The notes under the pieces were generated by a model. It made no database searches. It was not told the DNA's origin and saw nothing but the letters and a program-made list of their open reading frames with translations. DNA of 64,000 bases, from contig NZ_CP031716.1 of assembly GCF_001696605.3 (NCBI RefSeq), forward strand, positions 2,480,001 through 2,544,000, given 5' to 3'. Source of the DNA: Acinetobacter wuhouensis (GTDB lineage Bacteria; Pseudomonadota; Gammaproteobacteria; Pseudomonadales; Moraxellaceae). Positions 1-14,219 of this stretch are shown here, in pieces. Made by a program: the position numbers and the translations under genes. How positions within the stretch are numbered: the stretch's first letter is position 1; the number at the start of each line of letters is the position of its first letter.

Positions 1-998
1 ATTGTGTTTTTGTTCTGTTTAGATTAGATTTAGCTTTCTGTTCCATCTGCTTAATCTGCTTATCACTTTCTTCAATCGCTGAATCCGTGATCCCAAATAA
101 ACCTCTATTATCTTTATTACCGTTTAATCCCATCGGATCTACCCATTGATTTGGGTCACTCACATAAGCAGAATTATTTAATCCACCATGTAGACCTATT
201 GGATCTTTACTTACATACCTTGCACTAAACGGCTCATAATATCTGTAACGGTTATAGTGCAACTCTGTTTCATGGTCGTAATATTGACCTTGGAATCTTA
301 GATTGGTTTGCTCAAGTAAGTTATCACTGACATTTATTTCTAACGCTTTGCCCCATGTATCCTGCTTAATTTCCCAAACACACTCACCCAACTCATTACT
401 TAAAGTCTGCGGTGTGCCTACTTGATCACAATGATAAAATGCAACTCGCTCTAGTTCTGCTTTATTCTTTCTCGTTTCAGTATTCCATACAGGATATTTA
501 TAAATCGAGTAAGGTTCATGTTGAAAACGTGTGTAATCAGGTTTTTCGATCAGTTTAATAAAACCTGCGTAACCAGTCTGAAATAGCGGTATAAAACTAT
601 TTGGTTCATAAACATAATGCTTAGTGTAGTTTTTATTATTTTCTGAATTTTCTCGGTTTGATTGATATGACTCCCACACCATCAAATCACCATCCCAACC
701 AAATAATGTCAGACTACCATTTAGGCTATTTTTAAATAAGCGTCGTCCAAATACATCATAACCATAGTTTGTGATTTGATCATTATTATCACTTTGGGTT
801 AAACGTCCTTCTTCATCGTGCGCAAATTGTTCACTTAATCCATCAGGGTAGATAATCGCTTGTAACTGTCCTTTGTCTTTGCCTTGGGTACTGTAGATAT
901 ATTGAACTTGTTGTGCATCAGCAGAGGCTTGAGCTGTCAGTGTGCCTTCATCATCATATTGCCATGCACTGCTCTTGTTTGAACAGTCAGTATACGAC
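1..998 (-). pseudogene. Displaced rhs 3' end, cassette A (truncated Rhs core plus start of a toxin domain)
   Basis: The minus strand is open from about 998 to the window edge and reads as Rhs: YD-repeat sequence, the conserved core with GQYYDHETELHYNRYRYY, then DPIGL and DPMGL motifs 22 residues apart. About 40 residues of a different C-terminal segment follow (roughly 1-128), starting NGNKDNRGLFGITDS and rich in Lys/Gln. The toxin end and any immunity gene lie outside the window. There is no N-terminal region, start codon or promoter: homology to the complete copy at 5724-10526 begins abruptly at about 998, next to an integrase fragment. Compared with that copy about 370 residues are missing in frame, because HDEEGRL runs directly into TQSDNN. 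I infer a silent cassette that could only be expressed after recombination. The Rhs identity is certain; the toxin activity is unknown. Confidence 0.85.
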
Positions 999-1000
999 CT

Positions 1001-1342
1001 TATACACAACAGGATGATTTAATCTTTATTTCACCACGTAGTGCAAGCATGTTGTCAGATATGTCGCTTACCACTTTGATTCGACGCCTGCATAATGAAA
1101 AGATTGCAGAAAATGGTGTCGGTTATATTGACCCAAAACAGAATAGAATTGCGACTACGCATGGTTTTCGCTCAACCTTCCGTGATTGGTCAGCAGACAA
1201 GACTGAATATCCTCGTGAAGTATGTGAACACGTTCTCGCACATAAACTCCCTGATGAAGTTGAAGCAGCTTATCTACGTGGAGCTTATCTCGAAAAACGT
1301 AAGGGTTTGATGGCTGATTGGGCTAACTTCTGCAATATTTAA
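1001..1342 (+). pseudogene. C-terminal fragment of a P4-type tyrosine recombinase (integrase)
   Basis: The frame ending at 1342 shows the end of the catalytic domain of phage P4-like integrases: the HGFRSTFRDW box with the H-x-x-R pair, a second His in the LAHKLPDEVEAAY box, the putative nucleophilic Tyr in that AYLRG segment, and the usual ending LMADWANF. Family-like sequence continues upstream of the first ATG (1049) to about 1001 (YTQQDDLIFISPRSASML), where it meets Rhs sequence. About 110 of some 400 residues remain, with no N-terminal arm-binding domain and no start, so it cannot be active. It marks a former integrative element or a rearrangement endpoint inside the rhs array. Confidence 0.85.
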
Positions 1343-1527
1343 TAAATAGCATAGATCCAATGCTTCTGCCATTTAAGGCAGAAGCATTAATCTACTTATT
1401 AACAATCAAAAACATATAAAAAATGAACTTACATAAAATAATTAACAGACTCAGAATTTTCAACATCCTATTGGCTAAATCTAAAAACTCCCATGTGAGA
1501 GTCTCTTTTTAATTATCAACAATCTGT

Positions 1528-1800
1528 TCAACTTTCTTCTTGAAAAAAATGATGATGTTCTAAATATGCACTACTAAATCTAGCTCTAAATTTACTATTT
1601 TTTTGTAGATCATTTTTTGGTAGCCACAATTCATTTTTAATCACCCAATCATAGATTGTTATATCTACTGGATACCTAGTTAACATACATTTTAGTTTAT
1701 TTTCTAAAATATATTGTTCCGCATCGTTTTTATTGATAAAACAACCAATAATATTTAGATTTTCACTACTTTGTATAATCCAAATGTATTTATCACTCAT
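1528..1800 (-). CDS. DUF7710-like protein, probable immunity protein for cassette B
   Basis: This is a 90-residue acidic/aromatic protein without a signal peptide. Its layout matches what I recall of the DUF7710 family: an N-terminal YIWIIQSS strand, a GCFINKNDAEQYI helix, then LTRYPVDITIYDWVI and a C-terminal FRARFSSAYLEHHHF stretch. It starts 7 bases after the stop of the displaced rhs cassette B, on the same strand, which is the usual place for the immunity gene of an Rhs toxin. The family is of unknown function to my knowledge; the immunity role comes from position only. If the cassette is silent, this gene may still be transcribed from its own promoter to protect against sister cells, but no promoter is obvious. 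Confidence 0.75.
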   Translation of the reverse strand: MSDKYIWIIQSSENLNIIGCFINKNDAEQYILENKLKCMLTRYPVDITIYDWVIKNELWLPKNDLQKNSKFRARFSSAYLEHHHFFQEES

Positions 1801-1807
1801 TTTTCAC

Positions 1808-3034
1808 CTAATATATTTTCTCAAGTCCATAAGGATCACAATGTTGTTCATAACTCAATCCTAATGTTTCTGCTTCCATAGCACAGAGACATTTGCCTGA
1901 TAGTGAGTTATCCTTACATTGAGGAATAGTAAAAATATGTAAAACATTTTGAACAAGACTCATCACACCAACAGCTTTTAAAGTTGTACCTGTCGATTTA
2001 GTTTGTGCATTTTCAGGCTTACATGTTCTACAGCCATAGTTTTGAAATTTCAAATAATTATTAATCTTATTAATATCTCTTCTAATAACTGATAAATTCT
2101 CATTTACAACTTGTTGTTGTTTAGAGGACAAAGCTGGCTCTCCTTTCAATGGTTTTCCATTTGCTCCTATTTTAACAGTTTTTCCCCCACCATTGACATG
2201 AGCATGTGCAGGTAAATGATCATTACCATAATAATAATGCTCAATAGTAACTCCGCTCTGTTGAACTATTTTACTATTCGGAAGTGTTGGGACTCCATTT
2301 AGTCCAAGAGCATCCACCCATTGATTCGGATCACTGACATAAGCAGAATTATTTAAGCCACCATTAAGTCCAATCGGATCTTTACTCATATACTTTGCAC
2401 TAAACGGCTCATAATATCTGTAACGGTTATAGTGTAATCCTGTTTCATGGTCGTAATATTGACCTTGAAATCTTAGGTTAGTTTGTTCAAGTAAGTTATC
2501 ACTAGCATTTATTTCTAAAGCCGTACCCCATGTATCTTGCTTAATTTCCCAAATACACTCACCCAACTCATTACTCAGGGTTTGTGGTGTACCTACTTGA
2601 TCACAGTGATAAAACGCTACTCGCTCCAATTCCGCTTTATTCTTTCTTGTTTCTGTATTCCATACTGGATCTTTATAAATCGAGTAAGGTTTTGTTTGGA
2701 ATCTTGAATAGTCAGGTGTTTCAATTAATTTGATAAAACCTGCGTAGCCTGTCTGAAACAAAGGCACAAAGCTATTCGGTTCATAGACATAGTGCTTGGT
2801 GTAGTTTTTATTATTATCAGAATTTTCTCGATTTGATTGCTGTGACTCCCACACCATCAAATCACCATCCCAACCAAATAAAGTTAGACTGTTTTCACTT
2901 TGATTCTTCTTAAATAAGCGACGACCAAATACATCATAGCCATAACTGGTGATTTGACCATTGTTATCACTTTGAATCAGACGATTTAAGTTATCCCATG
3001 TCAGTTTGAGCGTTTTACTTGATTGTGTGATTTT
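1808..3034 (-). pseudogene. Displaced rhs 3' end, cassette B (Rhs core with a DUF4160-like toxin segment)
   Basis: The minus-strand frame is open from 3034, just after an in-frame TAA at 3035-3037, to the stop at 1808. It begins in the Rhs core (KTLKLTWDNLNRLIQSDNN) and includes the core end GQYYDHETGLHYNRYRYY and DPIGL. There is no proper start codon; the first usable codon is a TTG inside the core. The 163-residue C-terminal segment (1811-2299) has HYYYGNDHLPAHAHVNGGG followed by KIGANGKPLKGEPALS and a helical part, resembling DUF4160-type proteins, then a Cys-containing tail (8 Cys). The second motif of the self-cleavage site reads DALGL rather than DPxGL. I infer a silent toxin cassette paired with the DUF7710 gene downstream. 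The toxin activity is not known to me. Confidence 0.8.
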
Positions 3035-3043
3035 TTATCACAC
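3025..3043. repeat. Small perfect hairpin at the upstream break of cassette B
   Basis: GTGTGAT and ATCACAC are perfect 7-base arms around a TTTTT loop. The hairpin lies exactly where homology to the complete rhs gene stops (about 3029) and contains the in-frame stop of cassette B. It could be a weak terminator or a recombination scar; nothing decides between these. Confidence 0.5.
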
Positions 3044-3188
3044 TTAGTTGTTTTATAATCAGCAGAGAATTCAAAAAGGATTGAATTTTAAGACACCAAA
3101 TTAAATGGTAGAAGACTTTTATAAGTTAGCTACATAGAATCTTCCAAGTGGAATTCTCCTGTAATTTCAGCACACATCAGTTTTAATA

Positions 3189-3443
3189 TTATTTATTTTC
3201 AGTACCACCATAATTTACTAATTCTATAAATAAACTTAATATCACGCCCATTCCGAAAGATACACCAAACATCCAGTTTAATGAATCTAAATATTCATTT
3301 AATGTATTACCCCAAACTTTACTTATAGTAAGACCAACTATTAAAAATATGGAAAGGACTAAAGTTCTTACTATAAAAGTTAAATAAGGTTTCCCCTTTA
3401 TAGTAAAAAAAGTAGCAAAAAGAGTCATTATAATTTCTATCAT
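3189..3443 (-). CDS. Small membrane protein, probable immunity protein for cassette C
   Basis: This 84-residue protein is mostly hydrophobic. I see a first segment at about residues 4-14, a strong membrane segment around 26-43 (TLVLSIFLIVGLTI) and another around 57-75 (WMFGVSFGMGVILSLFIEL), with a short polar tail. Its ATG overlaps the stop of the upstream rhs cassette C by four bases (ATGA at 3440-3443), so translation of the two was probably coupled. Inner-membrane immunity proteins usually accompany toxins that attack membranes or act in the periplasm, which agrees with the glycine-rich hydrophobic segment upstream. I recognise no named family; the immunity role is inferred from position. 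Confidence 0.7.
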   Translation of the reverse strand: MIEIIMTLFATFFTIKGKPYLTFIVRTLVLSIFLIVGLTISKVWGNTLNEYLDSLNWMFGVSFGMGVILSLFIELVNYGGTENK

Positions 3444-4715
3444 TTATTATTATCCTCATTCTTGTCTTGCATTTTATCAATTATTGCTCCACTAGGTTGA
3501 GAGACAGCTTGACCAACAACTCCAGCATTTGCGCCAACAACTACCTTTTCATACCATACTAAAGACTTATCTAAAGCCTCTTTAGCTACCTTATGACTAC
3601 TTCCCCCAGCCATCACTGTCATTGGAGCAGAATATAAACTAGCAACTCCAGATCCAATTGCAGATCCTGCTAGAATCTTATTAGTATTGAAGTATCGTAA
3701 GTCATTGACATACTTGTATTTATATGAATTCCTCCCCACTTCCATAGCCAAACCAATCCCCCCTCCTGTTAACATTGCTTGCCCTGCCATATACGATCTA
3801 GCAGTCGCTCCTGTTCCAGTGATTAAACTTGTTGCTCCACCTGCTTGAAAAATCGCTGCTCTTCCTAAAACACCCATATTTGCCACACCAACAATTTGAC
3901 CTCCACTATAAGCATTTGACTCTTTATCTACCACATCATTTGTACCCATCCAATCTCTAACTTTACTTGTAGCTCCAAAACTAACTGTATCTCCCCACCC
4001 TGCAGCGCCATCTACAACCCAATCAGGTAAAGAGGTTGGTACCCAAGGTGTATCAACTTTCTCAGGTATCAGTGCCCTCTCAGATCCGTAACCTCGTGAT
4101 TGCTGTTTATTTATTTCATTCATACTCTGAGCTGAAGCATTCCATGCTTCTTGTGTTTTTTTACTTTCATTCTGAATCTGCATCATTTTTTGTCTATTTT
4201 CAGCATCAATCTGGGCTTGCCTATTCATTTGTACATTCTTAGCAGTAGTTATTGAATCTGCTGGATATTTATGCTTTGAATTTTTAGTTCTAGAAAAACT
4301 ACCATTGCCATCTGTCCACGCATAATCTGCCATCAACCCCATCGGATCAATCCACTGATTCGGATCATTCACATAACTAGAATTGTTTAATCCCCCAAAC
4401 AATCCTATCGGATCTTTACTCATATACCTTACACTAAATGGTTCATAGTATCTGTAACGGTTATAATGCAACCCTGTTTCATAGTCGTAATACTGACCTT
4501 GAAAACGGATATTAGTCTGTTCAAGCAGGTTATCACTGGCATTGATCTCTAAAACTGTACCCCACGTATCTTGCTTAATCTCCCAAACACACTCACCCAA
4601 CTCATTAATCAGAATTTACGGTGTACCCACTTGATCACGGTGATAAAATGCTACAAGTTCAAGCTCAGCTTTTCTTTCTTGTTTCTGTACTCCATACAAG
4701 GGCTTTATAAATCGC
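3440..4715 (-). pseudogene. Displaced and decayed rhs 3' end, cassette C (glycine-rich hydrophobic toxin segment)
   Basis: The intact part is open from about 4600 to 3440 and starts within the Rhs core (GECVWEIKQDTWG). Upstream to about 4715 the same core is recognisable but broken: the Gln of GTPQTLSNE has become a stop (TAA) and codons are lost near the KDPVW region. Apart from a TTG inside the core no start exists. After the DPIGL and DPMGL motifs come 297 residues (3443-4333): a polar, Gln/Asn-rich helical stretch, then GWGDTVSFG and RDWMGTNDVVDKES, a linker type seen before toxins in several Rhs proteins, then a Gly/Ala-rich hydrophobic part. The hydrophobicity and the membrane partner suggest a membrane-active toxin; this is inference. 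Confidence 0.8.
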
Positions 4716-4837
4716 CTAGGGTACTTATTGATAATAAAGAATCGCCAGACTACACACCTAAAACTACAGATATTCTTTAAAAATGAAAACTTTAAATGAT
4801 TAAAAAAAGATTAATGAAGCAATTAATTAAATTGAGC

Positions 4838-5722
4838 CTAATCTTCAATTCTACTTAAATAAGCTTTCGCTTTTAAATCACCATTTTTTAAAGCTTTATT
4901 AAAATATTTTTTTGCTAAAGAAACATTTTGTTTAACACCCACCCCCTTTAAATAGGCTTCACCTAAATTTATTAACGCATCAGAGTTACCTAAGTTATAT
5001 GATTCCTCGAAATATTTAAATGCTTTCTCTTCATCTTGCTCTACGCCTTGACCTTTAGCATATAAAACACCTAAATTATTTAATGCTGGTGCATTTTTTT
5101 TAATAGATGATAAGCTATACCAATAAAAGGCTTGTTTATAATTTTTCTTAACAGGTCCCTTACCAAAGTCATAAAGTGTTCCTAAAATATATTGAGCTTC
5201 TGGAATATTTTTTTCTGATGCTAGAAGACTATATTTATATGCTTTATCAAGGTTTTTATGTTTTTCTGGTGCATAAAAATAAAGCATTGAAAGATCCCTA
5301 AAAGCATCCAAATTATTACCTTTAATTGCTATTAGTAGGTTCTTTTCTATCTCATCATAATCAGCAGATATCAAGTTTCCTCTTTCATAAATTAGCTGTG
5401 CTAAAAAATATGCAGCATTGTAATTTTTCTCATTTTGTTTACTCAGCCAAAACTTAGAATTTTGATAATCATAAAAATTAGATGTCCGATCACTATATAT
5501 TAAACCTAATTTATATTGAGCAGCATCTAGACCTAGTTTTGCTGATTTTTCCAAAGATTGTATGATTTCAGCATCATATTTTTTTTTAATTCTATATTCT
5601 TCTTGCGCAATTTGATAATAACATTGAGCATTTTCAGAACAGTTTACTTTTTTTGTTTGAGCACAAGCAATTAAAGGTAAATTTAAAAAAGTAATTAATA
5701 TAATTTTACTTAAAAAGTTCAT
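4838..5722 (-). CDS. Sel1-repeat lipoprotein, probable immunity protein of the complete Rhs effector
   Basis: This 294-residue protein has a lipoprotein signal (Lys at 6, hydrophobic stretch, lipobox LIAC with Cys20). It is followed by tandem Sel1-like (TPR-type) repeats of about 36 residues; clear ones include AQYILGTLYDFGKGPVKKNY, the following copy with ALNNLGVLYAKGQGVEQDEE, and ALINLGEAYLKGVGVKQNVS. It starts one base after the rhs stop, on the same strand, and shares its high A+T content. Sel1-repeat periplasmic lipoproteins serve as immunity proteins for several T6SS effectors, for example lipases. A periplasmic partner suggests that the toxin acts in the envelope. The repeat assignment is firm; the pairing is inferred from adjacency. 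Confidence 0.85.
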   Translation of the reverse strand: MNFLSKIILITFLNLPLIACAQTKKVNCSENAQCYYQIAQEEYRIKKKYDAEIIQSLEKSAKLGLDAAQYKLGLIYSDRTSNFYDYQNSKFWLSKQNEKNYNAAYFLAQLIYERGNLISADYDEIEKNLLIAIKGNNLDAFRDLSMLYFYAPEKHKNLDKAYKYSLLASEKNIPEAQYILGTLYDFGKGPVKKNYKQAFYWYSLSSIKKNAPALNNLGVLYAKGQGVEQDEEKAFKYFEESYNLGNSDALINLGEAYLKGVGVKQNVSLAKKYFNKALKNGDLKAKAYLSRIED

Positions 5723-5723
5723 A

Positions 5724-8700
5724 TTACCACTTCTCCATATCTTTCATATAACGATCAGATTGTCTAAATAATTTTTCAGCACCACTATTTTCCTGATATT
5801 GCTTATTACCTTTAAACTCTTTAGCTCTTTTATCCAATTCACTTAAAATACTTTCAGAATTTGAATATCCATACCATTTAGGTAAAACAATTGAATAATC
5901 TTTATTAATTTTATCCAAAAACCTTTTTGCCTCCTCCCTTGTTAAACGCTCTTTATTCCCAAACATATTTTTATATACGGCTTCAAATTTTTCATCCCAC
6001 ATTCGACAAACTGGAAAATCAAGTTTTCCACCTTTAAATTTAATTGGATCAGGTTGAATATATCCAGCTGTTTTCGTCGCAATTTTTCCCATTTGTTTAA
6101 CAACTCCTTTTCCACCTGAATTAAAAAAATCTATCCAAGATGAATCAAAATGAAACTTATAAGCTATATCATAACCACCACCTAAATTTGTATAAACAGT
6201 ATTAATTTCCATCAAACCTAATGGATCAGAGAATTGATTACTATTTACTGGATACGATAATAAATTCAATCCCCCGAATAACCCAATCGGATCTTTACTC
6301 ACATACCTAGCACTAAACGGTTCATAATAACGATAACGATTGTAGTGTAAACCTGTTTCAGGGTCGTAATATTGACCTTGGAAACGGATATTACTTTGCT
6401 CAAACGGATGATCTTGGTTTTGAGTTTTTATTTCTTGTGTTGTACCCCACGTATCCTGCTTAATTTCCCAAACACACTCACCTAACTCATTACTCAGTGT
6501 TTGCGGTGTACCCACTTGGTCACAGTGATAAAACGCTACTCGCTCCAATTCTGCTTTATTCTTTCTCGTTTCTGTACTCCATACAGGGTCTTTATAAATC
6601 GAGTAAGGTTCTGTTTGGAATCTTGAATAGTTTGGTGTTTCAATCAGTTTGATAAAACCTGTATAACCTGTTTGAAACAATGGTACAAAGCTATTTGGTT
6701 CATAAATATAATGTTTGGTGTAATTTTTATTATTTTCAGAACTTTCTCGATTTGATTGGTACGACTCCCACACCATCAAATCACCATCCCACCCAAATAA
6801 AGTCAGACTGCCATTTGTGCTATTTGTTGCGTTTTGATTCTTCTTAAATAAGCGTCGTCCAAATACATCATAACCATAAGTTGTGATTTGACCATTGTTG
6901 TCACTTTGAATCAGACGATTAAGATTGTCCCAAGTAAGTTTTAAGGTTTTACCTGCTTGGGTGGTTTCGATCACATTCCCCTGCGCATCATATTTATAAT
7001 GCTTACCTTGATATTGGGTAATGAGGTTATTTTTCACTTGGCTCGACTGTGTCGCAATCGGGTCGATCAAGTTACCTGCTGGGTCAAAGGCAAAGCTTTC
7101 ATTACTATGTGGGCTTTGTGTTTTAATCAAACGACCAATCGAATCATATTGGTAATTCAATTTACCTAAGCGACTGTCATCGACTTGAGTGAGTAAATAG
7201 TTATTGTCGTATTGGTAGTGACGCTCAGCTTGGTGTTTTGCTTGTTGTAATTGGTCTGTTGTTTCTTGTTCAGGACGGATGATCTGTGAACTGAGTAAAC
7301 CAACATCATTGTAGTTCTTGGTTTGGATTAAGCCATTTGCCAACATCCGCACAGTTTCACGGTGTAAGTCATCGCGTTGAAATGCCACCATGTCCTGTTG
7401 GTTAAAGCCAATCCCATAAATATGCCCTGAACCATAGCTGAGATTAGTTTGGACTTGTCCATCAGGACGAATAGTCTTAGTTAAGTTACCAAGCTCATCA
7501 TATTCATAACGTAATACCGCAGTCAGTGGGGTGAGATGCGGTACTTTATAGTGTTGGTGTTCACGTACCAATTGACCAAGCTGATTTCTGTAGAAATCAA
7601 TTTGGCTTTCTTGGTTTTTCGCTTGGCTGAGTTGATTATTCAGGTTGTATTCAAACTCCTCAGTTTGGCTATGGCGTGTTTGCAGATGGGTATAAGTTTT
7701 TGAAGCGATTGAACCATCTTGGTGATAGCCAAATTGGGTCAGGATATTCGGTTGACGGATTTGAAATAGTTGACCATTTTCACTATAGCTATAATGTTTT
7801 TCTTCACCATCAAAAGCTTGTTCATGGATCAGTTGACCAAAGCGGTTATAGTCAAATGAGTATTCCGCATGGTTTTGGTTGATCAGTTTTTGGATACGAC
7901 CTTGTTTATCCCATTGGTAGCCAATTTGATGTTTGTTGGCATCCACTCGTTGTTCAAGTAAGCCCACTTGATTGTATTTATACTGTGTGATCAAACCTTT
8001 GGTATCGGTATGTTTGAGCAAGCGCCCTTCTTCATCATGGCTAAATTGTTCTTTCAGTCCATCTGGGTAAATGATTGCTTGTAGTTGCCCTTTGTCTTTA
8101 CCTTTTGTGCTGTAAATGTATTGTACGGCTTTGGCATCAGCAGAAGCTTGGGCAAGCAGTGTACCTTCTTCATCATATTGCCATGCGCTTTCTTTGCCTG
8201 AACAATCACTATAAGACACCATTTGTCCAAGATCATTATATTGGATTTTCTTCGAGCCACCTTTAGCATCGGTAATTTCGACGATTTGATTGTCATTATT
8301 GTATTTATATTGCGTGCTATGTCCCAGTGGATTAATTTCCTTGGTGACATTGCCATCTGCATCATATTGTTTTTTCCAGATATTGCCCTCTGGGTCTTTG
8401 GTTTCAGTTAAATTACCCTCTTCATCATAAGCAAAACGGATAATCCCGCCATTGGGTTGTACGATTTTGATCAGTTGGTCTTGGTCATTATAAACTTGTT
8501 CTGTTTCTAAACCTGCAAAGTCGATTTGACGGGTAATGCGTTTTTGGCTGTCTCGTGATAACCATCTTTCTCGCCCATCCGCTAAACGAGTACGGTAAGT
8601 AAAACCATCGAGATCAAAATAATAATAGGTCGGTACATCATAAGCATCATACACAGCAACTTGACGTAAATGTGGATGCCACTCTAAACGGGTTTTGAAA

Positions 8701-10526
8701 CTACCATCATCTGCCCATTCTGCAATCGCTTTGGCTTTAGCATCAGTGGATTCATAACGGATATTTTGTCCACGTCCTGTACGATCGGTATAACGAGTCA
8801 GTTGATGGGCATTATTATATTCATAACTGCGTGTATGACCATTTTGATCTATGGCTTTGGTCAAATTGCCTTGTTGGTCATATTCATATCGTGCCAAAGC
8901 TTCTGCTTGCTCATCAACAAAAGCAGCGATGACTTTGGCTTGATCATTAAACGCGAATTTAACTTGATGTTTACCACGTTTCAGTTGGAAATCGATCGCT
9001 TGTAAATAGGCAAATTGTTCAAATAACAGATAAGTTAAAACAACTTTTTCATTGGTCTTATCGTTAAACTGTTGCACCACATGGTAGTGTTTTCCACCAT
9101 TAAAACTATGGAAATGGAAATTCCACTCTGAACCAAAATTCAGCAATAAATCACCATCAGTATGTGGCGTAACAACAAAACCTTCAAATGGAACAATATA
9201 TTCTTCATAGACAATCGACTCAGGCAGTTGGTGCTTACGTCCATTGCTGTCGATAAATAAGTAACCGTTTTGATTTTGAATAATCACATTGGAAAATGGC
9301 ATCATCCAACGAGCGCCGATCATGCTGTGATCAAATTCATTCATTTGTGAGTTATATTGACGACTAAAAGCAAAACCCACTTTCGGTAAATAGAAGTCTG
9401 AATGATTAACACGTTCTGCGCCGATTGCATAGCTGATACTATGCGCTGTAGCCGAATCACTTGGTGTTGCATCTGGTTGTGCCGTTGCACAAATCGGATC
9501 GTTTAAAGCATCAGGCTGCAACGTCACAAATTCTAAGATATCACCATTGATATGTTGTTCATGCTCACCTGTCTGATTTGCGGGCACACTGGCACTGGCC
9601 TTATTACCCTGTGCTTTGATTGCTTTTAGTGTTTCTTGAATCAACCATGCAAGGCTATATTTTGTTCCTGCATTCGCTTGTTGTTGAATCACTGTTGTAA
9701 GCGTTGTTAAAGCTTCTGCGCTTTCCCGTTGTAGTTGGCTAAATGAAGCTTTTGGTATCTCCATTTTAGATGACATATCTGACTGAGCTGGTGTTCCTGT
9801 CAAGTCAATCAGTGGTTTCGCCCAATTGCTAAACTGCTGACTTGGGTCGCGTTTTTCAGCAGTTGCACCCAAGTTAATGGTTGGCGATACGAGTCCTTTA
9901 CCTGTTTCCAAAGTAAAAGCATTCAGAATGGATGAACCTAAAGTGGTTGCACCACTCAATAGACTGGGCAACTTACCTTGAGTTTCTTTTAAGAATTTTT
10001 CTAAATCCCCTGCCATTTGTGCATTTAAATGCAAGGTCATACGACGTAAATCTGCTTCTTTTATTTTTCCATTGTCAGGATATAAACATTCTGCCATTAA
10101 ACCGAGTAATGGACGAAGTGCCATACGTACATGCGCTTCTGCTTGTGGCTCTAAATATAAACCGATCAAGTTCATACTCATCAGTGCAGCTTGTTGTACA
10201 CCTGCTTCACCTTGTTTTTGTTCCGTGGCAAAAAGTAAAAGATCAAGTACAGAACCTGATAAAGCAAAAATATTGGCAACTGTTGGTACATTCGCCAAAT
10301 TTTTTAACTGCCCTAGGTTTGTATTACCACATTGTTTTAAATAACTTTCGATTTGATGCGCAATAAATTTATGATCTTCAGTGTGTGTAACACTTGCTAA
10401 ATTGAACACTGCCAACTCGACTGCTGGTTTGGCTTGATTTTGATTCGTTTGACCTGTCGCTGAATTATTTGTTCCAACAGTTGTATTTTCAGTCTCGGAA
10501 TTTCTTGAATTATCGATTAACGCCAT
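5724..10526 (-). CDS. Complete Rhs-family T6SS effector with an unclassified C-terminal toxin
   Basis: This is a 1600-residue protein. Residues 1 to about 345 are an N-terminal region with no PAAR domain or membrane helices visible. A DUF6531-like segment follows (about 362-440), then many YD repeats (about 560-1220), then the Rhs core ending at DPIGL (1412-1416) and DPLGL (1434-1438). These two motifs form the self-cleavage site known in Rhs proteins, which would release residues 1439-1600. That 162-residue segment (MEINTVYTNLGGGYDIAYKF at its start) is A+T-richer than the core and matches no toxin family I know. It begins 69 bases after vgrG, so it is probably co-transcribed and delivered on that spike. 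The start ATG at 10526 is supported by position. This is the only intact rhs gene in the window. Confidence 0.92.
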   Translation of the reverse strand: MALIDNSRNSETENTTVGTNNSATGQTNQNQAKPAVELAVFNLASVTHTEDHKFIAHQIESYLKQCGNTNLGQLKNLANVPTVANIFALSGSVLDLLLFATEQKQGEAGVQQAALMSMNLIGLYLEPQAEAHVRMALRPLLGLMAECLYPDNGKIKEADLRRMTLHLNAQMAGDLEKFLKETQGKLPSLLSGATTLGSSILNAFTLETGKGLVSPTINLGATAEKRDPSQQFSNWAKPLIDLTGTPAQSDMSSKMEIPKASFSQLQRESAEALTTLTTVIQQQANAGTKYSLAWLIQETLKAIKAQGNKASASVPANQTGEHEQHINGDILEFVTLQPDALNDPICATAQPDATPSDSATAHSISYAIGAERVNHSDFYLPKVGFAFSRQYNSQMNEFDHSMIGARWMMPFSNVIIQNQNGYLFIDSNGRKHQLPESIVYEEYIVPFEGFVVTPHTDGDLLLNFGSEWNFHFHSFNGGKHYHVVQQFNDKTNEKVVLTYLLFEQFAYLQAIDFQLKRGKHQVKFAFNDQAKVIAAFVDEQAEALARYEYDQQGNLTKAIDQNGHTRSYEYNNAHQLTRYTDRTGRGQNIRYESTDAKAKAIAEWADDGSFKTRLEWHPHLRQVAVYDAYDVPTYYYFDLDGFTYRTRLADGRERWLSRDSQKRITRQIDFAGLETEQVYNDQDQLIKIVQPNGGIIRFAYDEEGNLTETKDPEGNIWKKQYDADGNVTKEINPLGHSTQYKYNNDNQIVEITDAKGGSKKIQYNDLGQMVSYSDCSGKESAWQYDEEGTLLAQASADAKAVQYIYSTKGKDKGQLQAIIYPDGLKEQFSHDEEGRLLKHTDTKGLITQYKYNQVGLLEQRVDANKHQIGYQWDKQGRIQKLINQNHAEYSFDYNRFGQLIHEQAFDGEEKHYSYSENGQLFQIRQPNILTQFGYHQDGSIASKTYTHLQTRHSQTEEFEYNLNNQLSQAKNQESQIDFYRNQLGQLVREHQHYKVPHLTPLTAVLRYEYDELGNLTKTIRPDGQVQTNLSYGSGHIYGIGFNQQDMVAFQRDDLHRETVRMLANGLIQTKNYNDVGLLSSQIIRPEQETTDQLQQAKHQAERHYQYDNNYLLTQVDDSRLGKLNYQYDSIGRLIKTQSPHSNESFAFDPAGNLIDPIATQSSQVKNNLITQYQGKHYKYDAQGNVIETTQAGKTLKLTWDNLNRLIQSDNNGQITTYGYDVFGRRLFKKNQNATNSTNGSLTLFGWDGDLMVWESYQSNRESSENNKNYTKHYIYEPNSFVPLFQTGYTGFIKLIETPNYSRFQTEPYSIYKDPVWSTETRKNKAELERVAFYHCDQVGTPQTLSNELGECVWEIKQDTWGTTQEIKTQNQDHPFEQSNIRFQGQYYDPETGLHYNRYRYYEPFSARYVSKDPIGLFGGLNLLSYPVNSNQFSDPLGLMEINTVYTNLGGGYDIAYKFHFDSSWIDFFNSGGKGVVKQMGKIATKTAGYIQPDPIKFKGGKLDFPVCRMWDEKFEAVYKNMFGNKERLTREEAKRFLDKINKDYSIVLPKWYGYSNSESILSELDKRAKEFKGNKQYQENSGAEKLFRQSDRYMKDMEKW

Positions 10527-10595: not shown

Positions 10596-13500
10596 TTATT
10601 TAGAATTATTCTGCGCATTAAAAACATTTTGCTCATCTGCTTTGACTTTGCGTGTGGTAATTTTAGTCGTTAAAGTCCGTGACTCTTCTAACTCCATTTT
10701 CACAAAATCGCCATTACTGCTTGTGATGGACGGTGATGTTGACCTCGGCGTAGAAGATGGCATTGGCAATGATTGTACTGCTATTGGTTCAGGATCACTC
10801 CCAATTGGAGTGGTTTGAGCATTTCCAAAAAGTGGCGAACTTGCCGATGGCACACTTGCAGCCCCATTACGGGTGGTGATGGTATAAGTTAAGAATCTTG
10901 AAGAATATTCATCTTTTTTAATCACATCATCATCCATTGAAAAAGATGAATTCGTTTGCCCTTTACTGCCAGTACTATAATTACTGACAGCATCTGCTGC
11001 TGAATGACCATTAAACCCTAACGCGCCAACAAAACCTGTATTATTACTAATCCCAGATAACAAACCATTGGTTTTCTGTGCAATAAGTGCAGAGGCTTGA
11101 TCTTTGAAAAAGTCGACGCCTTGCTCTTTAATTGCTTGTAAAGACTGACTTGGATTCGCCAATATTTGTCCTACATTCATCATTTGCGAAGGTGATAAAT
11201 TTAAATTTAAGGCAGAAGACACAGAGCTTAATGCACTCGAAGTAAATTGTTCTTTAAATTGACCTAGTGTCTGATTTCCAAGATTTTTAAGCGCATTTTT
11301 TCCTATATTTTTTAAGGTATCGCCATTTAGAGAGAATAAATTATCTTTGAGTTGCGACATCATATTTTGTCCCAAAGAACCCAAAGCATTTTGGGCAAAA
11401 CCTGCAATTCCTCCTACAACATCTTCTGACCAAGTATAGTTACGATTGAAATGGCTTGCTTGATCCCATGCACTGCGTGGATCAGTTTCAAACTCTACTT
11501 TAGCAGGACCAGGTGCAATCCCCGTCACTTGTGCAAAGCCATTTCCGTCCAACTTTCCTGAAACCTGTTTACCTAGTGAATCAATCACTTTAAAACCCGT
11601 CTGTTTAAAAAAGTCCTGACCACCGTAACTTTTTAACAGATCTAATGCGCCTTTTAATGGATTTGAGGATGGTAGCTGTGCCGAAGCACTTGCACTCGCA
11701 CCAGGTTGAAATAAATGTTGCCCTGCATTGACTTGGAACTTACCACCTGTTTTCGGGAAAATACCTGAACCATTTAAAGTAATTTGTGAACTTGCACCTG
11801 TAATCACAATCTCTTTCGGACTACTGATGACAATTTTGTCATCAGTTGATGAAATGGTAATACCCTTTTTAGCCAAAATATCCAAAGCATCTGACTGTGC
11901 TTGAACTTCAATTTTACTTTGTGCGGCTACGGCTTTAATTCCACCTTGCGCAGCAAACAAACTGACTTTACCTAAAGCTTGACCCACTAAATTTTTTTGG
12001 GTACTGAGGTTGATACTGTCCCCTGCAACTTGGTTAATTATCCCTGTTGCAGAAAGATGAATATCCTCTGGAGTGCTCAAAGCAATTCCATCTACAGAAC
12101 TCAGTAGCATGATTGCTTTTTTATATTTGGCGATATCTTTTTCGATTTCATCTGCAAATGCTTTTAATTGCTCTAAGGACTCGATTTCATCCGTTTTTTG
12201 ACCTTTTGCAATATCACTTAATGCTTTACTATTTGTTTGGCTACCTTCCAATTGTTTTTTTGCAATGTCTGAATCTAGGTGTTCACCTTTGGCTTGATCT
12301 TGCTTATAAGTTGAGACCAATAAACCTTGCCCTGCACGAACTGCACCCCATTGATCGGTTCTCAGTTCAAAACCTTCGCCACGATCAGCACTTTCAGCTT
12401 TATCTTTAGGGTGACTCAGCTTTCCTAAATTAAGCTGAGTCGCACCATGACTACTTTGTAATTGTGTGCTAATTTGCCCAGTCGTGTCATCAAATCTGAG
12501 TTGCCCAAAACCTTCACCTTGGTATTCTTTGCTTCGTATACCTGCTAACTTTTTAGTATCAGGTAACTTGCCCTTCTTATCAAATTGCGTTGGATGACGT
12601 TGTGCTTCGTGGATACGCCCTACAACAAATGGTCGATCAATATTGCCATCAAAGAAATCAATAACCACAATTTCGCCAATACGCGGCAGGAATCGAGCGC
12701 CATAACCTTCACCAGCCCATGGTGTGAGTACATCAACCCACGCAGAATCGGTATCATTGTCATTCGAACCTGCACCACCATCATGGGTATTGTCTTCATT
12801 TCGAGTGAATAGAAAACGAACTTTAATCCGCCCCCACTCATCTACATGAATTTCCTCTCCACTAGGACCAACTACTTTGGCACGTTGTGGTGATGCACTT
12901 GGGCGATGTTGCAGTGGATTATATTCTGGAACTGTGCTGATATTTCTACGTTGTAAAATAAGGTGATTGGCTTGGCGTTCATCTTTATTATTGGTTGTAA
13001 TTTCAGCCTGTTGCCACTGACTTTGTTTAAGCAATGCCGTGACTTGATCTGTTAAGTCTTTAGGTAAATTATTCTGATTATAAAAAGTCTTCGATGTAAT
13101 TAAAAATTCTTTATCTGAACCCTCATGCTGATCAATCTCAGGATGCTCATTGAACTCAAACCAATAACCCACATTTGCATCACGTACTGTAGAAATTGCA
13201 GTGAACTGTTTGGCTTGTGAATCATAATAGTTACTTAAGTTTTCGTTAAATTTTTCAATCTGATTGTTGCCTGATTTGGTTGCACCATCTTCGCCATTTA
13301 GATCTTGAATCCATGCAGGGCTAAAATGCCATGCTTGTTCTAATCCTAAGCTCGCATTGTCTTGATTCTCACTATGGCTATGTTTACTTTGGACTGAACC
13401 AGCACCTTCTTCTGTCTCAAGTGCGTCTGCTTGCCAACGTTGAATATGAACAGAAGTCGGTTGAATTGAGCGTTGTCCAATAAAATTGGTAATGCTGTCT

Positions 13501-14219
13501 TGCTTTTCTGTAGCACTACTGCGATGGAAACGAATATTCTTACGATCTAATGATTTATATTGTGAGTTATCATCGATTAGACGGAGTTTTTGAGCTTGGA
13601 TTTGCTCACTTGAACTAGATACTTTATGTTGCGCTTCATCAATGAGCCAACTCATCCCCTCACTTCGCATCAAGCGAGTGAGAAAATCAAAATCACTTTC
13701 AGATGATTGCATGATGAATGGACGAATATCATATTCTTTAGTGAGTCCACTTTTATCCAATATCAAGCTTGAGGCAAACAAACTACTACGCTGCTGCCAT
13801 TCAGAAAAAATAGTTTGAATTACATCCACAGCCGATTTATTCATAAATACTCGGCTATTACGACGATGTTTCCAAAGTGCCGTTGGATCTTCAATTGTTA
13901 GGCGATAAATTGTTAAAGAACCATCACTCGCACCGATATCTGCTTTAGTAATAATCCCCGAAGTACGGCTTAATTCTAATTTATCCGTAACAACATCAAT
14001 TGCGACTTGACTACCAATGAATTGTTTTAATGGGATAGCAGCATTTGTTGACAGGCAGATCAATTGTAGACTTACACCAGAATTAAGCTCATGCGTACCA
14101 TCTATACGCTGTAAAAAAACTTGATCATTTAAAGATATATTTGAAAATTGAACGTGAATGGCACGCTTTTGTGCTGTGAGTCCAAGTTGCTCTAAAGCAG
14201 AATAAATATTTATCGCCAT
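10596..14219 (-). CDS. vgrG: VgrG, type VI secretion tip (spike) protein with extended C-terminus
   Basis: This 1207-residue protein has the usual order: a gp27-like phage-hub region (1 to about 420), a gp5-like OB fold (about 455-545, with HVDEWGRIKVRFLF and GYGARFLPRIGEIVVIDFFDG), then a DUF2345 beta-helix region (about 683-830, repeating ISLST/IVITGASSQI-type strands). After it, about 855-930 forms a small beta-sandwich-like segment (GFKVIDSLGKQVSGKLDGNG and a following PGPAKVEF), typical of cargo-binding tails. The last 270 residues are Ser/Asn/Gln-rich with a Pro/Ser-rich linker and a charged end. VgrG trimers tip the Hcp tube. No Hcp, sheath or baseplate genes are nearby, so this is an auxiliary vgrG-effector locus. 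It is the first gene of the rhs transcription unit. Confidence 0.95.
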   Translation of the reverse strand: MAINIYSALEQLGLTAQKRAIHVQFSNISLNDQVFLQRIDGTHELNSGVSLQLICLSTNAAIPLKQFIGSQVAIDVVTDKLELSRTSGIITKADIGASDGSLTIYRLTIEDPTALWKHRRNSRVFMNKSAVDVIQTIFSEWQQRSSLFASSLILDKSGLTKEYDIRPFIMQSSESDFDFLTRLMRSEGMSWLIDEAQHKVSSSSEQIQAQKLRLIDDNSQYKSLDRKNIRFHRSSATEKQDSITNFIGQRSIQPTSVHIQRWQADALETEEGAGSVQSKHSHSENQDNASLGLEQAWHFSPAWIQDLNGEDGATKSGNNQIEKFNENLSNYYDSQAKQFTAISTVRDANVGYWFEFNEHPEIDQHEGSDKEFLITSKTFYNQNNLPKDLTDQVTALLKQSQWQQAEITTNNKDERQANHLILQRRNISTVPEYNPLQHRPSASPQRAKVVGPSGEEIHVDEWGRIKVRFLFTRNEDNTHDGGAGSNDNDTDSAWVDVLTPWAGEGYGARFLPRIGEIVVIDFFDGNIDRPFVVGRIHEAQRHPTQFDKKGKLPDTKKLAGIRSKEYQGEGFGQLRFDDTTGQISTQLQSSHGATQLNLGKLSHPKDKAESADRGEGFELRTDQWGAVRAGQGLLVSTYKQDQAKGEHLDSDIAKKQLEGSQTNSKALSDIAKGQKTDEIESLEQLKAFADEIEKDIAKYKKAIMLLSSVDGIALSTPEDIHLSATGIINQVAGDSINLSTQKNLVGQALGKVSLFAAQGGIKAVAAQSKIEVQAQSDALDILAKKGITISSTDDKIVISSPKEIVITGASSQITLNGSGIFPKTGGKFQVNAGQHLFQPGASASASAQLPSSNPLKGALDLLKSYGGQDFFKQTGFKVIDSLGKQVSGKLDGNGFAQVTGIAPGPAKVEFETDPRSAWDQASHFNRNYTWSEDVVGGIAGFAQNALGSLGQNMMSQLKDNLFSLNGDTLKNIGKNALKNLGNQTLGQFKEQFTSSALSSVSSALNLNLSPSQMMNVGQILANPSQSLQAIKEQGVDFFKDQASALIAQKTNGLLSGISNNTGFVGALGFNGHSAADAVSNYSTGSKGQTNSSFSMDDDVIKKDEYSSRFLTYTITTRNGAASVPSASSPLFGNAQTTPIGSDPEPIAVQSLPMPSSTPRSTSPSITSSNGDFVKMELEESRTLTTKITTRKVKADEQNVFNAQNNSK

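Follow-up and report, generated by a model that had tools for sequence, protein, structure and literature searches.

Organization of the rhs locus

The DNA analysed here (the window) is a stretch of 64,000 nucleotides from Acinetobacter wuhouensis, positions 2480001-2544000 of contig C8 in a genome of 3,960,451 bases and 8 contigs. Its left end carries a complete rhs gene followed downstream by a row of truncated rhs 3' ends, referred to as orphans. Positions are those of the window unless contig positions are indicated. The complete gene (5724-10526, minus strand) encodes 1600 amino acids with matches to RHS_repeat (E 1.7e-66) and to the core-associated domain Rhs_assc_core (E 1e-19). Its core ends in a hinge of the form DPIGL...DPLGL, and tip I (5724-6212, minus strand) is found behind the DPLGL motif. 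Directly upstream lies vgrG (TssI), the gene for the delivery spike (10596-14219, minus strand), which matches TIGR03361 above cut-off (E 1.4e-69) as well as Phage_GPD and T6SS_Vgr. A search of the genome for type VI secretion system (T6SS) genes, confined to the sheath gene, detected VipB/TssC at C8:3788697-3789605 (E 2.2e-137). The locus is a T6SS VgrG-linked Rhs effector locus.

When the 3' half of the intact rhs gene was searched against the entire genome, seven matches resulted; every one belongs to this locus, and two lie beyond the left edge of the window. A preliminary description of the window had reported the complete gene and three truncated core ends, A, B and C. These are present where they were placed, and their main core matches of 79-83% identity over 349-685 nt have E-values of 5e-83 or lower, so that chance is excluded. 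The array was then thought to consist of three orphans, but it reaches beyond the left edge of the window and contains five orphan core ends, two more being D and E. From the intact gene downstream the order is C, B, A, D and E, packed into approximately 11 kb, and each unit consists of a core end, a tip and an immunity candidate. All core ends run in the same direction as the intact gene and end at the same hinge, which reads SKDPIGL in A, B and C. The six positions (the intact gene and five orphans) hold five tip types, as a comparison of the tips found them mutually unlike except for the pair C and E. While A, B and C are indeed distinct, the picture of an array of three unlike stores had to be given up, since C and E are of one type.

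Orphan C (3440-4725, minus strand) is composed of a core end with an in-frame stop (approximately 4386-4725) and a tip (3440-4333), whose stop codon is overlapped by an 84-aa gene (3189-3443, minus strand) whose product has two or more hydrophobic segments. This immunity candidate has no match in Pfam or NCBIfam. Orphan B (1808-3033, minus strand) is an open frame of 408 aa with its core end at 2370-3033 and its tip at 1808-2290, followed by a DUF7710 gene as immunity candidate (1528-1800, minus strand; PF24819, E 1.3e-20). Orphan A enters the window at positions 1-998 (minus strand) with two core pieces (801-998 and 176-796); its tip extends from approximately position 128 to contig position 2479369 and its immunity candidate occupies contig positions 2479087-2479350. 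Outside the window, the core ends of D and E are located at contig positions 2476525-2476940 and 2475090-2475433, respectively. Left of the window, the remainder of A and its neighbour gene are followed by an IS3-type element, orphans D and E and IS3 debris; past these lies an open frame that, judged by eye and without a family call, we take to be an aminotransferase gene. The toxin roles of the tips and the immunity roles of their neighbours are candidate assignments by position and family, and delivery of a toxin today is expected from the intact gene only.

Of the partner genes first proposed for the stores, the DUF7710 gene and the gene for the small hydrophobic protein stand as immunity candidates of B and C, respectively. 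The Sel1-repeat gene (4838-5722, minus strand; Sel1, E 1.9e-32) begins 1 base past the stop of the intact rhs gene and, because of this position, is assigned as the immunity candidate of the intact gene and not as the partner of a store. The Sel1 protein has hydrophobic residues 3-21 at its N terminus and a lipobox that was read by eye. Sel1-repeat relatives of this gene were also seen near rhs genes of other species (L069, L080, L081, L087, L088, L091 and L096), several of these loci having more than one. Behind the immunity candidate of A, a second small gene (L008 16643-17053, minus strand) encodes a 136-aa protein that is hydrophobic near its N terminus; this gene could be an additional immunity candidate or a relic.

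State and divergence of the orphan core ends

Identity of the orphan cores to the intact core is highest for B (83.4% over 685 nt; 84.8% over the last 422 nt), followed by D (81.8%, 424 nt), A (80.5%, 645 nt), E (79.5%, 352 nt) and C (79.4%, 349 nt). Orphan A contains a further piece of 198 nt (76.8%, E 6e-38) and the two matches hit non-adjacent parts of the intact gene, corresponding to an internal loss of approximately 1.1 kb. The orphan cores are 80-85% identical to each other. An alignment of the cores had been proposed as a means to find a recombination window. Exact matches to the intact gene extended over at most 53 bases in D, 35 in A, 32 in B, 23 in E and 18 in C, and no intact-orphan signal remained after correction. 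This correction applies to a test for shared runs that used the 148 sites at which the six cores vary, in which C-E (p 0.0006), D-E (p 0.004) and intact-D (p 0.010) ranked first. Only C-E passed the Bonferroni limit for 15 pairs, and intact-D was the nearest of the intact-orphan pairs, none of which was significant.

The reading frame is open through core and tip in A and B, while the remaining three of the five units are interrupted by an in-frame stop in the core of C, a frame change in the core of D and a frame change in the tip of E. The tips of A, B, C and D are therefore open and that of E is broken. The neighbour genes are open at all five orphans, which places the E immunity candidate behind a broken tip and the other four behind open tips.

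A DNA tree was calculated from 37 core ends over 422 columns, and matches that were shorter than 300 nt or fell short of the core end were dropped. Orphans A to E form one clade (support 96/95), within which C and E are sisters (99/90). An orphan of genome G044 joins this clade with weak support (83/38) and the intact gene is next (92/88). The position of the clade beside the intact gene indicates that the orphans derive from the resident core lineage or a close one, but not recently.

Probable exchange of a cassette between orphans C and E

Orphans C and E share the same tip and the same immunity candidate, and their divergence differs strongly by feature: 16.3% in the core, 1.8% in the tip, 0.4% in the immunity candidate and 9.2% in the stretch behind it. 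A three-segment fit placed the boundaries of a similar tract at positions 3113-4422, in which 18 of 1207 sites differ (1.5%), compared with 49 of 312 (15.7%) on the core side and 12 of 66 (18.2%) on the other side. The gain in log-likelihood was 51.6 on a coarse grid and at most 11.3 in 300 shuffles. As the tip of E is broken, the low divergence of the two tips is not explained by constraint. Most simply, the unit was duplicated long ago and tip and immunity candidate were later swapped between C and E; separate arrivals of the cassette at the two cores could also have led to this pattern. The event would be an exchange between orphans and does not involve the intact gene. The tract marks where a cassette is bounded: one border is close to the hinge, the other immediately past the immunity gene. 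The lower divergence of the immunity candidate than of the tip between C and E was considered as a signal of selection and dropped (1 of 255 versus 16 of 869 sites, p 0.14).

Relatives of the tips and immunity candidates

Tip B was found with 88% identity in the Acinetobacter bereziniae protein P0121, where it is preceded in one frame by approximately 436 core residues. This protein (599 aa, named partial) is encoded on a contig of 3518 bases and starts in the middle of the core without a methionine, its 5' end lying off the contig. Its core is 95.6-95.7% identical to those of P0006 (1669 aa) and P0010 (1678 aa), both of which lack tip B, and P0121 is presumably part of a complete rhs gene. 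The length rule of the protein search kept tip B from comparison with complete Rhs proteins of approximately 1600 aa. A second relative was detected in Rahnella sikkimica, where the end of a vgrG-linked Rhs protein (1387 aa, with a PAAR motif) matches tip B over its first 85 residues. The B-like tip is split there into two pieces in different frames (50% and 52% identity) and is followed by a DUF7710 gene (E 5.1e-38) with 35% identity to the neighbour of B. The annotated rhs gene on this Rahnella sikkimica plasmid ends inside the two-frame tip (L098 6001-6254).

The best-matching named relatives of the intact rhs gene belong to Acinetobacter. Among the best 120 of 3369 proteins, seven Rhs proteins with lengths of 1128-1684 aa ended in A-type tips (28-39% identity), and the best of these matches, P0022, covered residues 1-238 of 246. 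Relatives of tip C were weak (P0021, 23%; an orphan in G022, 40% over 195 residues), and tip D showed 51% identity over 120 residues to an orphan in G044 and 34% to a plasmid-borne short rhs gene. Across 148 other genomes of the genus, tip A was matched in four and tips C and D in two each, all partially and with 28-55% identity, and tips B and I in none. In plasmid records, tips B, C and D each had a single distant match and tip I had none; tip I also had no relative but itself in the search of proteins 0.55-1.75 times as long as the intact one. Scanning a collection of 84,980 species with tips B and C revealed no relative. Pfam gave no match for tips A, D and I, a DUF4160 match below cut-off for tip B (E 0.0056, 17.3 bits, cut-off 23) and DUF2368 at E 0.94 for tip C. 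A literature search on DUF7710 found no paper. A relative of the DUF7710 gene (64% identity, internal stop) is present in genome G079 (C4:1965184-1965441, L101); its surrounding 3.3 kb contained no tip or core match, and the search with tip B found no other genome among the 149.

The idea that orphan tips are exchangeable modules is supported by the B- and A-type tips on other Rhs proteins and by the exchange between C and E. It had been suggested to look for each orphan segment on a full-length rhs gene elsewhere. This comparison was positive by tip type for A, negative for C and positive with gaps for B, given the incomplete 5' end of P0121 and the two frames of the Rahnella tip.

Arrays at other Acinetobacter loci

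A search with the core end matched 56 of 149 genomes of the genus, the genome of A. wuhouensis included. From these matches 40 stretches were drawn, about half of them picked for several core ends, and the sample is thus enriched for arrays. Downstream core ends were present at 13 of the 31 loci that have a frame of at least 900 aa at the core end, counting the locus described here (12 of 30 without it). Three loci combine an intact gene with more similar orphan cores (identity over 450 nt of 91.6% in L061, 93.3% in L060 and 94.4% in L069). A set of 73 tips (30 full and 43 orphan) was compiled from 41 stretches, and tips shorter than 40 aa were dropped. It contained three pairs of orphan tips from different species with 95-99% identity, and in two of these pairs the shared DNA continues into the next core end. 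Longer rows, with eight core ends in L062 (G022) and six in L067 (G073), belong to another core clade and have no full-length frame in the fetched stretch. No paper title on rhs tip arrays in Acinetobacter was among the matches listed in the literature search.

Traces of mobile elements

The same end of an IS3-type transposase is found behind the immunity candidates of C and E. The copy behind C is a remnant (3048-3134, plus strand; 83% identity over 29 residues) and the copy behind E is longer. The IS3-type element between D and A (L008 15005-16149, minus strand) contains a 246-aa transposase frame that is 100% identical to a frame near the rhs gene of G112 (L091 14463-15200). The 3' remnant of an integrase gene lies between A and B (1049-1342, plus strand) and matches positions 333-393 of the 413 of the PRK09692 model below cut-off (E 1.8e-7). 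Two weaker and interrupted relatives of this remnant occur in the same genome at C8:1108302-1108586 (75%) and C8:1102798-1103052 (67%), together with a distant relative (33%) in an open frame of 427 aa at C8:2850758.

Origin and role of the orphan array

We consider it likely that the 3' side of the locus is an old array of tips made by C-terminal displacement. In this process, a new segment of core end, tip and immunity gene would enter by homologous recombination in the core, and at each entry the previous tip and its immunity gene would be shoved downstream and lose their start and delivery part. As most cassettes are bounded by core ends on both sides, they would be exchangeable between array positions, strains and species. 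Expression of the displaced tips is probably weak or absent, and the displaced immunity genes may still shield the cell against neighbours that carry those tips. Such a process requires only rare incoming DNA and would fit the single core clade, the unlike tips and the lost starts. It is supported by the five core ends at the locus of the complete gene, their common clade, their unlike tips and the C-E tract. Tips B and A on Rhs proteins of other species, the arrays at other loci and the orphan tips shared across species lend further support, as does the T6SS sheath gene of this genome.

Several observations weigh against this reading. The orphan cores have 79-85% DNA identity and are unlike the near-identical cores in the examples of Jackson 2009, which implies that the displacement events are old or that each core arrived together with its tip. 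Nor is decay a simple function of distance: the nearest orphan, C, has a stop in its core and B and A are open. The immunity candidate is not significantly better kept than the tip between C and E, no displacement step was seen directly, and one genome per species was compared.

Long arrays of dissociated rhs tips that arise by C-terminal displacement are already described in the sections consulted of Jackson 2009 (PMC2935791), and the suggestion of a little-described system does not stand. As in those arrays, a complete rhs gene is followed by partial cores of varying length with unlike and mostly startless tips and some frameshifts or stops; the differences are the 79-85% DNA identity of the cores and the tip that is present twice with diverged flanks. 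The orphan and main cores of Jackson's examples are 91.6% identical at the amino acid level in Serratia and identical in E. coli (PMC2935791), a near-identity that is absent here and is not taken as required for the class. Passages on Snodgrassella alvi (Steele 2017, PMC5727410) likewise describe a 5' complete rhs gene, its immunity gene and truncated rhs genes with theirs, with integrase-like genes near some. Transcription was found there for many of the orphan tips and toxicity was demonstrated for several, whereas the tips described here are candidate toxins. In the parts considered of the 2019 survey of Acinetobacter baumannii RHS effectors (PMC6833914), the VgrG-linked proteins resemble the present locus in that similar RHS cores carry unlike tips behind a DPxG-(18)-D(P/S)xGx hinge; these passages mention orphan immunity genes in a small number of cases and no long tip array. 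The locus is a known kind of array, and a reversible switch is not supported.

Protection by the old immunity genes is the likely, candidate benefit of the array at present. A stronger version, compatible with displacement, is that the row is kept since displaced immunity genes protect against the tips of rivals and the tips are passengers, which we regard as a tentative possibility. Kirchberger in 2017 reportedly described orphan immunity arrays in which immunity genes are kept without the toxin. The frame is open in each of the five immunity candidates downstream, including the one that follows the broken tip of E, and a DUF7710 relative (64%, with a stop) is present in G079 although tip B was found in no other genome among the 149. 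Orphan immunity genes are known from passages of the A. baumannii survey (PMC6833914). On the other hand, the divergence of immunity candidate and tip in the C-E pair is not significantly different (p 0.14), and tips A, B, C and D are open as well.

The array could also be a live store in which cassettes of tip and immunity gene are copied between positions by gene conversion, in the manner of C and E, with the diverged core ends and the shared stretch behind the immunity gene as arms, and occasionally reach the intact gene. We think this unlikely; if true, a strain could bring back an old warhead.

Even more doubtful is the switch proposed at first, in which the intact gene would be the site of expression and would exchange its tip, by recombination in the core, for those stored silently in A, B and C. 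Homologous core ends in the same direction, orphan-type tips at the end of longer rhs genes elsewhere, one cassette exchange between two orphans and the 53-base exact stretch of intact-D (uncorrected p 0.010) would be in agreement with it. A precedent is found in Salmonella Typhimurium LT2, where, as far as the sections used of Koskiniemi 2014 (PMC3967940) describe, a main gene is likewise followed by an orphan core end, tip and immunity gene, and in evolved lines the orphan becomes joined to the main gene. The fusion in Salmonella can draw on 522 bp at 95% identity (PMC3967940), whereas the present cores reach at most 85% over 422 nt with interruptions and share no long near-identical stretch, the longest exact match being 53 bases. 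Core identities of 79-85%, the lack of an intact-orphan signal once corrected for 15 pairs and the interruption of three of the five units all argue against four interchangeable states. Furthermore, as the repeats are direct, a simple crossover would fuse an orphan tip to the intact gene but delete the present immunity gene and all cassettes between. Deletion of intervening DNA by crossover at such loci is stated in the consulted parts of Poole 2011 (PMC3150448) and Koskiniemi 2014 (PMC3967940), where a prior duplication is proposed.

That the fragments came as debris with mobile elements is least probable: IS3-type genes or remnants do accompany E, C and D, an integrase remnant is adjacent to A, and the passages of Steele 2017 (PMC5727410) mention integrase-like genes near rhs genes, but the core ends share direction, hinge and one clade beside the intact gene, and no match to the integrase remnant came up in the 40 stretches fetched from relatives.

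Acinetobacter provides a setting in which the movement of rhs tips is testable, chiefly at loci where the intact and orphan cores are more alike (L060, L061 and L069). Under C-terminal displacement, the row of displaced tips would be a record of the toxins that a lineage used, and it may still protect against rivals using them.

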